Assembly (NCBI GenBank): GCA_937944405.1
Contig: CALDYR010000041.1
Location: 1 to 64,000 of the forward strand
Direction: 5' to 3'
DNA: 64,000 nt
Source of the DNA: an uncultured Pirellulaceae bacterium
GTDB taxonomy: Bacteria > Planctomycetota > Planctomycetia > Pirellulales > Pirellulaceae
Of the stretch, positions 8,569 through 47,151 are shown piece after piece (positions within the stretch are counted from its first letter, which is position 1; every line of letters begins with the position of its first letter). Under the pieces are notes generated by a model that made no database searches, had not been told where the DNA came from, and worked only from the letters and a program-made list of their open reading frames with translations. The position numbers and the translations under genes are program-made.

Positions 8569-9801
8569 CTATCTCAATCGTGTTACGATCGCTGCTAGTG
8601 CATCGGTAAAGGCGTCGACTTCTTCGATTGAGTTGTAAAGATAAAAACTGGCACGGCAGCTAGCCTTGAGCCCCAAGACCTGATGCAGCGGCATCGCACA
8701 GTGGTGCCCCACGCGAATCGCAAAACCTTTCTGGTCCAGTAGGATCGAAATGTCTTGTGGGGCAACACCATCGACGACAAAACTGACAATTCCAGACCGG
8801 TGTTCGATCCCAGGCCCCAGAACCTTCAGTCCCTCGATCCCGGACAATCCCGTAATCAATCGCCCTGCCAGCAACCGTTCGTGGGTTGCTATTGCCGGCA
8901 ACGAAACGCTGTCAACGTATTCTATCGCGGCGCCCAATCCAATCGCTTCGACGATCGGCGGCGTACCGGCTTCGAATTTGGCCGGTAGTTCCCCGGGTGT
9001 AAAACCGTCGGTGGTGACTTGATCGATCATACTTCCACCGCCCAAAAACGGTGGCATCGCCTCCAATAGCGTTTGCCGTCCCCACAAAATACCGATCCCG
9101 GATGGCCCTAAAATTTTATGTCCGGAGAAAACGACAAAATCCGCACTCCAATCTTGCACGTCGGTCGGTTCATGGGGGACATGCTGCGCAGCATCGACCA
9201 AAGTCACTGCACCGGCCTCGGCGGCCAAATCGACAATTTCCTTGACGGGGAAAACCGTGCCCAAGACATTGGACACGGCCATGAAGGCGACCATTTTGGT
9301 CTGCGGTCCCAGCTTTGATTTGAAGTCATCTAAATCAAGCCGCCCATCGTCGGTGATACCGGCGAATACCACTTTAGCGCCCACCGCAGCGGCCACCTGT
9401 TGCCATGGAACGATATTGGAGTGATGCTCACAGATCGTCAATAAAACTTCATCGCCGGGCCCTAGGTTCGCGCGGCCCCAACTGTTGGCCACTAGGTTGA
9501 TCGCCATGGTCGTGCCGGCGGTAAAGATAACTTCGTTGTTGTGCGGCGCATTGATGAAGGCCTGAACGATTGTCCGCGCGTTTTCGTATTGATCGGACGC
9601 CTGTTCCGACAACCAGTGAATACCACGATGAACGTTGGCGTAGGTCCTCAAATAGCAGTCACTCATCACGTCGATGACCGATTGGGGATGCTGGGTCGAG
9701 GCCCCGTTGTCAAAGTAAACCAACTGTTTTTGGCGGTGGATTTGCTGGTTGAGGATCGGAAAGTCTCGCCGTAATACCGCGGCGTCAATTTTATTGCTCA
9801 T
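8569..9801 (-). CDS. sufS: Cysteine desulfurase, SufS type
   Basis: 410 aa; YFDNGASTQHPQSVID, SGHKILGPSGIGILWG (PLP lysine), VRVGHHCAMPLHQVLGL (catalytic Cys). Confidence 0.92.
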   Translation of the reverse strand: MSNKIDAAVLRRDFPILNQQIHRQKQLVYFDNGASTQHPQSVIDVMSDCYLRTYANVHRGIHWLSEQASDQYENARTIVQAFINAPHNNEVIFTAGTTMAINLVANSWGRANLGPGDEVLLTICEHHSNIVPWQQVAAAVGAKVVFAGITDDGRLDLDDFKSKLGPQTKMVAFMAVSNVLGTVFPVKEIVDLAAEAGAVTLVDAAQHVPHEPTDVQDWSADFVVFSGHKILGPSGIGILWGRQTLLEAMPPFLGGGSMIDQVTTDGFTPGELPAKFEAGTPPIVEAIGLGAAIEYVDSVSLPAIATHERLLAGRLITGLSGIEGLKVLGPGIEHRSGIVSFVVDGVAPQDISILLDQKGFAIRVGHHCAMPLHQVLGLKASCRASFYLYNSIEEVDAFTDALAAIVTRLR

Positions 9802-9840
9802 AGCGTCAAGTCTAACAGCGAGTCAATGTCTGGCAATGGC

Positions 9841-10800
9841 TCAGTTTGCCACACCGCCGGTTGCCGCGATGTCCTGCCAAGTCCCCCCCGACATTTGAGC
9901 CAGAGTTTTTTGAAGGGCTTGGGTGCCGCTTTTGCCGTCACCGTTTTTTTGGACGCGCTGGTACAAATTCGCCGCGAGCGTCAATCCGGGCAGGTCCAAT
10001 CCCATCTTATTTGCCCCTTCAATCGCGATCCCTAGATCTTTCACGAAATGGTCGACAAAGAAACCGGGGGCGAAATCTCCGGCGACGATACGCGGTCCCA
10101 AATGGCTCAACGCCCAGCTTCCCGCGGCTCCATTGCCGACCGATTTTAGCACCGAATTCAGGTCCAGCCCTGATTTCCGGGCGTACATCAGCGCTTCGCA
10201 GACTCCAACCATACCGGCGGCCACCAAAATTTGATTTACCATTTTGGTATGCTGTCCTGAACCAGCAGGCCCTTGATAGACAATCGTTTTTCCCATGGCC
10301 GCGAAACAGGGGGCCAGAGATTGGACGACGTTTTCATTGCCTCCGATCATGATCGAAAGTGAACCCGATTTAGCGCCGATGTCACCGCCTGAAACAGGCG
10401 CGTCGACCGCATCGATTCCGCGCGTTTGGGCCGCTTGGTCAATTTCAACGGCCAACCTAGGTTCGCTGGTGGTCATGTCAACGAACACCGAACCGGCGGC
10501 CGCGACGTTGATAATTCCGCCGTTCCCATTTTTCCCCAAAGCGATTTCGCGCACGTCAGAAGGCATGGAGACGATGGAGAAAATAACATCGCTTCGCCGC
10601 GCGACCTCCTCAGGAGAGTCCACCCATTGAGCGCCATGGTCCAATAAAGCTCGGGCTTTCGATTTCGTGCGGGTGGTCAAAGTCACCGAGTAACCTGCGG
10701 CGATCATGTTCTGGCACATGCCGCTGCCCATTACTCCGGTTCCGATCCATCCAACACGTGTACGATCGGGAGTTTTTTTGCAGATCGGGGCAGCGTTCAT
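9841..10800 (-). CDS. NAD(P)-dependent beta-hydroxyacid dehydrogenase (3-hydroxyisobutyrate dehydrogenase family)
   Basis: VGWIGTGVMGSGMCQNMIAAGY Rossmann motif, DAPVSGGDIGAKSGSLSIMIGG, GSGQHTKMVNQI. Start refined to MNAAPICKK at 10800. Confidence 0.85.
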   Translation of the reverse strand: MNAAPICKKTPDRTRVGWIGTGVMGSGMCQNMIAAGYSVTLTTRTKSKARALLDHGAQWVDSPEEVARRSDVIFSIVSMPSDVREIALGKNGNGGIINVAAAGSVFVDMTTSEPRLAVEIDQAAQTRGIDAVDAPVSGGDIGAKSGSLSIMIGGNENVVQSLAPCFAAMGKTIVYQGPAGSGQHTKMVNQILVAAGMVGVCEALMYARKSGLDLNSVLKSVGNGAAGSWALSHLGPRIVAGDFAPGFFVDHFVKDLGIAIEGANKMGLDLPGLTLAANLYQRVQKNGDGKSGTQALQKTLAQMSGGTWQDIAATGGVAN

Positions 10801-38286: not shown

Positions 38287-38360
38287 CGACTGAGTTCGTC
38301 CCGGAACCTCGTGGCACCGAGAGCGCGCGACGAATGCATTTGTTAATGAATGATGTACTG

Positions 38361-38440
38361 GGACTCGCCCGAATTTCCTTAAACACAGCCTGCGGGAATT
38401 CTGGCCAAACCCACGACGATCTCGAAGTTTGCTACTGAAA
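38361..38440 (-). repeat. Dispersed palindromic intergenic repeat, copy B
   Basis: Reverse complement: TTTCAGTAGCAAACTTCGAGATCGTCGTGGGTTTGGCCAGAATTCCCGCAGGCTGTGTTTAAGGAAATTCGGGCGAGTCCC. Confidence 0.7.
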
Positions 38441-43282: not shown

Positions 43283-43392
43283 TTATAGTGGCAAGCTTCG
43301 AAATCGTCGTGAGATTGGCCAGAATTTCCGATGCCTGTGTTCAAGGGAATTCGGGCGAATTTCATTACATTCAAAGGGAAAAGGCAATTTTT
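43283..43392 (+). repeat. Dispersed palindromic intergenic repeat, copy C
   Basis: TTATAGTGGCAAGCTTCGAAATCGTCGTGAGATTGGCCAGAATTTCCGATGCCTGTGTTCAAGGGAATTCGGGCGAATTTCATTACATTC...GGAAAAGGCAA. Confidence 0.7.
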
Positions 43393-45820: not shown

Positions 45821-46963
45821 CTACTCCCCGATCAATTTTAAGAAGACGTCTTCGAGGTTCAGTTTCTGAGGAACCAACCGCACAACACTGATGTTCTTAC
45901 TGCGCAAGCGGTCGACGAATTGGTCGACTTGACTTTGGTTTGCAAATTCAATGCGACAGGTCTGGTTTTTGGGAGACGTTTGGCGGGTCACCTCCAAGGA
46001 GATACTCTTACCGGACTGTTCGCCGACACTGTTAGCGATTACGGGCAGATCATCGAGTTCACCGCTAAGTTCGATATCAGCGATAATGGAACTGCCTGCC
46101 CCCGCCACGGCATCACCGATCGTGGCAACATCGCCACAGAACCGCAGCACACCGCGGTCAAGAATCGCGACCGAATCGCAAATCATTTCGACCTCTTGGA
46201 GGAGATGGCTGTTGAGAAAAATCGTAACCCCTGATTCCCGTAATCGTGCGATGATCTCCCGCATCTCAGCGCGGGCGCGCGGGTCCAAACCATCGGTTGG
46301 TTCATCCAACATTAACAGTTCCGGATCATGCAGCAACGCTTGAGCCAAACCTAATCGTTGGAGCATGCCTTTAGAAAAATTTTTGACGGACTCTTTTTCC
46401 CGTCCCTTCAGTCCGACCAAGGACAACAGCGTGTCCTGTTTTTCACGGATCACGCCATTGGGCACGTTACTAAGATTGCCATACAGCTCCAACGCCGTCA
46501 GCGCCGTCAAATGAGGACTGATACGAAGATGTTCCGGCAGGTATCCCACGTGACTGCGTCCCGCGATGCTACCCGCGGGGTGCCCCATCAGCTTCGCCGC
46601 CCCAGATGTTTTGCTGATGATGCCCAAAAGGATTTTCACAAAGGTCGTCTTGCCGGCCCCATTGGGACCTAGCAATCCAAACACTTCGCCCCGTCGAACT
46701 TCAAAAGTCACGCCTTTGAGGGCTTCGAATTTTTCCCCGAACAACATCCCTGAACGATAAGTTTTACGAAGTAAGTGCGCCTCGATCGCCGAGCCCTTGG
46801 CGTCAACCGCCCCGACGGGCGCAGGTTTTGCTTCGGGAACGACATTCGGTTTGGCGGAGTTAGTTTTATCAATCAATTTTGAAACGGTGGCTGAGTTTTT
46901 GACGGGGCTGAGTTTTTTTAATCGCAGTCTGATCGGACGCACCTTCACCCACCCGGCAGTCAC
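45821..46963 (-). CDS. ABC transporter ATP-binding protein
   Basis: 380 aa; LGPNGAGKTTFVKILLG, NFSKGMLQRLGLAQALLHDPELLMLDEPTDGLDP. Confidence 0.93.
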   Translation of the reverse strand: MTAGWVKVRPIRLRLKKLSPVKNSATVSKLIDKTNSAKPNVVPEAKPAPVGAVDAKGSAIEAHLLRKTYRSGMLFGEKFEALKGVTFEVRRGEVFGLLGPNGAGKTTFVKILLGIISKTSGAAKLMGHPAGSIAGRSHVGYLPEHLRISPHLTALTALELYGNLSNVPNGVIREKQDTLLSLVGLKGREKESVKNFSKGMLQRLGLAQALLHDPELLMLDEPTDGLDPRARAEMREIIARLRESGVTIFLNSHLLQEVEMICDSVAILDRGVLRFCGDVATIGDAVAGAGSSIIADIELSGELDDLPVIANSVGEQSGKSISLEVTRQTSPKNQTCRIEFANQSQVDQFVDRLRSKNISVVRLVPQKLNLEDVFLKLIGE

Positions 46964-47015: not shown

Positions 47016-47151
47016 CCTAGCGCTTTGTCAAAGCTAAAAGTGGGGCTTGGCAACATGAGCCGTTTTGGCGATCGCCACGATTATTGCGTGTTCAACGGTG
47101 GCGATCGCCAAAACGGCTCATCCAAAAATTAAGCTTTGACAAAGGACTAGG
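47016..47151. mobile_element. MITE-like nested inverted-repeat element
   Basis: Outer arms CCTAGCGCTTTGTCAAAGCT / AGCTTTGACAAAGGACTAGG (18/20 complementary) and inner perfect 24-bp arms ATGAGCCGTTTTGGCGATCGCCAC / GTGGCGATCGCCAAAACGGCTCAT. Confidence 0.6.

Follow-up and report, generated by a model that had tools for sequence, protein, structure and literature searches.

A probable IS630-family MITE with a REPIN-like core between divergent genes of a Pirellulaceae bacterium

The inverted repeat and its boundaries

The stretch of DNA analysed here (the window) is 64,000 nt long and originates from an uncultured Pirellulaceae bacterium. It includes a divergent gene pair made up of an ABC transporter ATPase gene on the minus strand, with its start at 46963, and a plus-strand ORF with a SUFU domain (E = 1.9e-7; listed start 47467). 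The nested inverted repeat that the initial annotation had described lies between these two genes, as stated there. An inverted-repeat search recovered both pairs of arms. The inner arms (47055-47078 and 47098-47121) pair at 24 of 24 positions around a 19-nt loop, exactly as first described; the outer arms (47016-47038 and 47129-47151) match at 87% over 23 nt. However, the two pairs do not have the common centre attributed to them, their centres being at 47083.5 and 47088, thus 4.5 nt apart, with spacers of 16 and 7 nt. The RNA fold of the repeat has an energy of -79.3 kcal/mol (z = -9.7), a value not reached by any of 200 shuffled sequences. Two occurrences of the outer-arm motif were counted in the window, where 0.05 would be expected, and a search of the window with the Rfam covariance models returned 0 matches at the gathering score.

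The mobile unit is best drawn from TA to TA, giving 132 bp with both TA dinucleotides included (Table 1). This refines the extent of the hairpin, initially put at about 136 bp. Since a C at 47017 and a G at 47150 lie just outside the TAs, each end reads CTAG. The octamer GCGATCGC, present in both inner arms, had been noted for its likeness to the cyanobacterial HIP1 repeat, which was put down as probably fortuitous. Relatives carry GCTATCGC at the same place, so that the likeness reduces to a local substitution in both arms; a link to HIP1 or to cyanobacteria was rejected.

Table 1. Coordinates of the element and its parts in the window
Feature	Positions	Strand	Remarks
Composite MITE, TA to TA, 132 bp	47018..47149	+	40-nt end is left, 31-nt end is right; covariance model match of 136.5 bits (own sequence included in the model)
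Left CTAG: C of the target, duplicated TA, the element's first base	47017..47020	.	C precedes the left TA in 37/42 copies and in 8/8 IS630 copies
Right CTAG: the element's last base, duplicated TA, G of the target	47147..47150	.	G after the right TA in 36/42 copies and in 8/8 IS630 copies
Left IS630-type end, 40 nt including TA	47018..47057	+	Terminal match to the L132 IS630 right end; outer TIR pair
Right IS630-type end, 31 nt including TA	47119..47149	-	Matches the IS630 right ends of L132 (G004) and L141 (G025)
Core: inverted REP-like doublet, 25-nt arm, 11-nt loop, 25-nt arm (61 bp)	47058..47118	.	Module also found without IS630 ends or within other TIRs
REP-like unit 1	47058..47082	-	Consensus arm is a bulged mini-hairpin; stem pair covaries
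REP-like unit 2	47094..47118	+	Consensus arm is a bulged mini-hairpin; stem pair covaries

Copies of the element and the IS630 elements that share its ends

The element is short, multi-copy and devoid of coding capacity. Its own genome, a draft of 161 contigs that is 93% complete, contains about 25 relatives of the region. Those of the same type as the element studied here include full copies on contigs C41, C71, C93 and C46 and fragments on C90 and C77. A sister type, with ends CTAGTGGTCTGTCAGCATT and CTAGTGGAGTGTCAGCATT, is represented by about 20 copies and is more uniform. On contig C160 the two types are joined in a chimera (L195, at about 9753-9874) in which the right ends of both subfamilies surround one core; this arrangement suggests recombination through the hairpin.

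Copies are also present in congeners. Among 42 two-ended elements from seven genomes, a set that includes a 120-bp element with a different core (L168:155-274), 33 are exactly 132 bp long, and most share the asymmetric layout 40 | 61 | 31. Twenty copies, three of them from another family of the order (G055), form an alignment in which only one column is gapped. When a covariance model of the composite was run against 197 sampled Pirellulales genomes, 34 of them, in 24 of 103 genera, gave matches, and example matches from several genera have both the CTAG-type ends and the core. Some matches, for instance in G033, end quite differently (GCTTGTCGGTTTA) and fall into another outer-repeat class, so that the IS630-ended composite itself is present in at most 34. 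Yet another end type, TAGTGCTTCGTTCCAACT, occurs with a similar layout in G174 and G197.

Intact IS630 copies of about 1.2 kb, with ends such as CTAGTGGTCTGTCAAAGCTTAATTTTAGGG, were found in congeners. Two overlapping ORFs of these elements make up an IS630-family transposase (NF033545, 138.7 bits; HTH plus Pfam DDE_3). In L141:944-2082 and L132:923-2079 the ORFs overlap by ATGA and the stop codon falls within the terminal repeat; the split being found in two species, it probably reflects a genuine two-ORF or frameshift organisation. The right end of the MITE aligns with the IS630 right ends of both loci at scores of 36-37, unmatched in 2000 shuffles, and its left end matches the L132 right end over only about 21 nt, with 4 of 2000 shuffles scoring as well. 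IS and MITE also have the insertion signature C|TA...TA|G in common (Table 1). IS630 elements duplicate TA (PMC2170065), and that paper credits Tenzen and Ohtsubo (1991) with the observation that IS630 prefers CTAG.

Altogether, the MITE-like reading of the initial annotation is supported by the multi-copy state, the IS630-type ends and the TA/CTAG target signature. The further copies that it proposed to look for were found, both in the own genome and among congeners, and so was an autonomous IS with matching terminal repeats, which proved to be of the IS630 family and to reside in congeners. The identity of the element as an IS630-family MITE is well supported. Movement would involve an IS630 transposase acting in trans, which would bind the ends, excise the element and paste it into a TA within CTAG; copy number would rise through the ordinary gain of cut-and-paste transposition during replication.

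No intact IS630 transposase was found in the own assembly (93% complete, 161 contigs). Besides one fragment, the IS630 remains in this genome are a DDE_3 copy bearing a stop codon and a decayed copy on contig C3. An end of the latter matches the right end of the sister type over 29 nt, and its IS630-like reading frame is a pointer to the IS630 family. A driver of the DDE_Tnp_1 type (IS4/IS5) was also considered and rejected: none of its 24 matches in the own genome is flanked by a pair of matching ends, the one TIR-like match near a fragment on contig C89 (L106) standing alone with no second end.

The core as a separately repeated module

The nested repeat, which the initial annotation rightly read as MITE-like, is a composite one, whose inner hairpin is a separate repeated module that went unrecognised there. 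Allowing up to 3 mismatches, the 25-mer AACCGTGGCTANCGCCNAAACGGCT, a half-site of the core, occurs 242 times in G004, 88 times in G014, 80 times in G033 (another genus), 58 times in G006 and 55 times in the own genome, against 0-1 matches for the reversed control pattern. Exact matches, among those listed, come from Rhodopirellula, Neorhodopirellula, Roseimaritima, Aporhodopirellula, Botrimarina and others. Solo cores outside the IS630 context end in ATTAGCCG...CGGCTAAT. Furthermore, the core is found centred within other inverted repeats (GAGGTTGTGATTTT, CGGCCTGTCGATTTA and TTGGACAGCGCCACTTT), representing at least two other terminal repeats, and inverted-repeat scores of core flanks clearly exceed those of shuffled flanks (maximum 28 versus 9). 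L240, L304, L331, L286 and other G004 loci form a GAGGTTGTGATTTT-ended MITE class with the same core; in the loci examined, no autonomous IS was found for the GAGGTTGTGATTTT and CGGCCTGTCGATTTA outer repeats. At three places in G014 (C16:32292-32544, C35:76127-76380 and C149:15949-16201) some 228 bp, and not 36, separate the core arms, another repeat having apparently inserted in the loop.

Folding of the consensus arm yields a bulged hairpin, CCG-KGGC-TANC-GCCM-AAA-CGG, for each arm alone. The K-M stem pair alternates between T-A and G-C in step, being canonical in 87/96 and 84/96 arms (47 and 43 expected), and the two arms of one core differ at this position in 53/96 cores. At loop position 10, the arms agree in 70/96 cores, more than independence predicts. 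The long hairpin for its part shows compensatory changes in the 20-copy alignment. As related sequences inflate the pair counts, these figures are read as consistent with both folds and not as proof of function. The core arms can be modelled either as folding singly or as pairing into one long hairpin. In its anatomy, the core is two REPs in inverted order. The possibility that the core derives from the C terminus of a transposase by coding fusion was rejected: similarity to the IS ends fades near the core, and any overlap there is weak and no longer than a few bases.

Origin of the composite and comparison with known repeats

In 16 congeners the divergent ABC and SUFU genes can be recognised as a pair, and the core lies between them in none (0/16); the intergenic region of one, G015, has a weak TIR-like match. 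The absence of the element from all 16 points to a lineage-specific insertion and not to a fixed regulator. As to the empty sites that the initial annotation proposed to look for, the element is indeed missing at these loci, and the search for a base-exact junction in the 16 intergenic regions gave none, the regions being too diverged; joined flanks of other copies offered almost no ORF-spanning sites for such a comparison. The great stability of the hairpin and its location, upstream of both genes at 55 bp from the ABC start and 317 bp from that of SUFU, might suggest that the two divergent promoters share a fixed cis-regulatory structure, be it a terminator, an attenuator or a protein site. 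Such a structure is made exceedingly improbable by the missing element in the 16 congeners, the multiple copies at unrelated loci, the lack of an Rfam match and the absence of a terminator-like site. Multi-copy state and absence from the congeners likewise refute the alternative of a single-copy element conserved in place. The insertion at this locus is most likely near-neutral, with a possible effect on the promoter or leader of the ABC ATPase gene. The anatomy of the core raises another alternative, in which a Y1 (HUH) tyrosine transposase (RAYT) moves it as a REPIN while the IS630-like ends are carried along passively. The order is rich in Y1 transposases; however, a Y1_Tnp profile search of the own genome gave no match, 40 Y1 loci, from core-rich genomes among others, had no core within about 1-1.5 kb, and the TA and IS630 ends coincide with the boundaries of the unit. 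We regard movement by a RAYT as very unlikely.

The core resembles REPINs and BIMEs (PMC3116915, PMC2817692) in consisting of two imperfect palindromes in inverted order, separated by a short spacer, in being extragenic and present in high copy number, and in being able to form one long hairpin or two small ones. It differs in its tag, TNAG (mostly TTAG, TCAG or TGAG) in place of GTAG/GGAG, and in lying within the ends of a DDE transposase element. Having no linked RAYT and a tag other than GTAG, it is not a REPIN in the strict sense. According to PMC3733652, Rhodopirellula baltica has REP families and many Y1 transposases, and Pseudomonas TIRs consist of degenerate REPs joined to unrelated stem-loops; the TIR/REP hybrids described in that paper flank tyrosine transposases, and none is presented there as an IS630 MITE. 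The core could conceivably be identical with one of the R. baltica REP families. The closest parallel on the MITE side is RUP, the pneumococcal repeat unit proposed to be mobilised by IS630-Spn1 (PMC2229807), which is likewise extragenic, has ends like those of a resident IS630 and targets TA, and measures 107 bp versus 132 bp here. RUP belongs to a different phylum (the comparison being one of descriptions) and was described as having no structural or functional motifs (PMC2229807), whereas the interior here is an independently repeated REP-like doublet. ISY100 and the IS630 family (PMC2170065) share the TA-duplicating DDE transposase and the CTAG preference of IS630; unlike the MITE they are autonomous, and the congener IS is split into two overlapping ORFs.

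Taken together, the element is very probably a non-autonomous MITE of the IS630/Tc1-mariner group, most likely composed of IS630 ends around a REPIN-like hairpin. For the REP-like doublet, the anatomy is well supported, the origin less so. As the middle is an independent Pirellulales REP-like doublet and not a shrunken IS, the composite was most likely born when IS630 ends came to flank such a hairpin, though cores may conversely have been released from MITEs. The fixed layout would then have spread and diverged across the order with the IS630 lineages driving it. Conceivably, the core could instead have belonged to an old IS630 MITE from the start, in which case solo cores and those within other TIRs would be remnants that were invaded or lost their ends. 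Such a history would account for the layout kept across the order, which would make the core as old as the MITE, and it draws on the weak TIR-like remnants adjoining some solo cores and on the agreement of the arms at loop position 10. Many solo cores, however, end in ATTAGCCG...CGGCTAAT with no trace of a TIR, the core sits symmetrically within the GAGGTTGTGATTTT and CGGCCTGTCGATTTA repeats, and single IS630-ended elements hold a different REP doublet; we therefore consider an intrinsic core rather unlikely. One such element is the 120-bp L168:155-274 (G006, contig C108), which combines IS630-type ends with a GTAG-tagged GTAGTGGRATTCGCCAGAATTCC doublet as core; in addition, the decayed IS630 on contig C3 of the own genome (L082, from 83779 onward) has a GTAG-type GTAGTGGRATTCGCCAGAATTCC doublet inside. 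These cases suggest that IS630-type ends also picked up the GTAG-tagged doublet; being single copies, they make repeated capture a suggestion and do not establish it.

A still more speculative and rather unlikely extension is a stable order-wide partnership, in which IS630-type ends repeatedly take up inverted REP doublets and the core is kept for a benefit to element or host. If so, the core might aid folding during replication, the binding of a host protein or the action of a second transposase, and one element would be spread by two unrelated routes. A review of MITEs asks whether internal motifs were captured from the chromosome or evolved inside the repeat (PMC2229807); the interior of the present MITE, traceable to a separately repeated module, bears on this question. 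In the open literature searched, outside which most subscription journals lie, we found no description of IS630 ends combined with a REP-like core. The Pirellulales, sparsely covered in that literature, thereby gain a defined repeat family, a covariance model and a candidate driver IS.

The window also contains two degenerate inverted doublets of the GTAG-tagged REP family (GTAGTGGRATTCGCCAGAATTCC), at 38355-38417 and 43306-43368.
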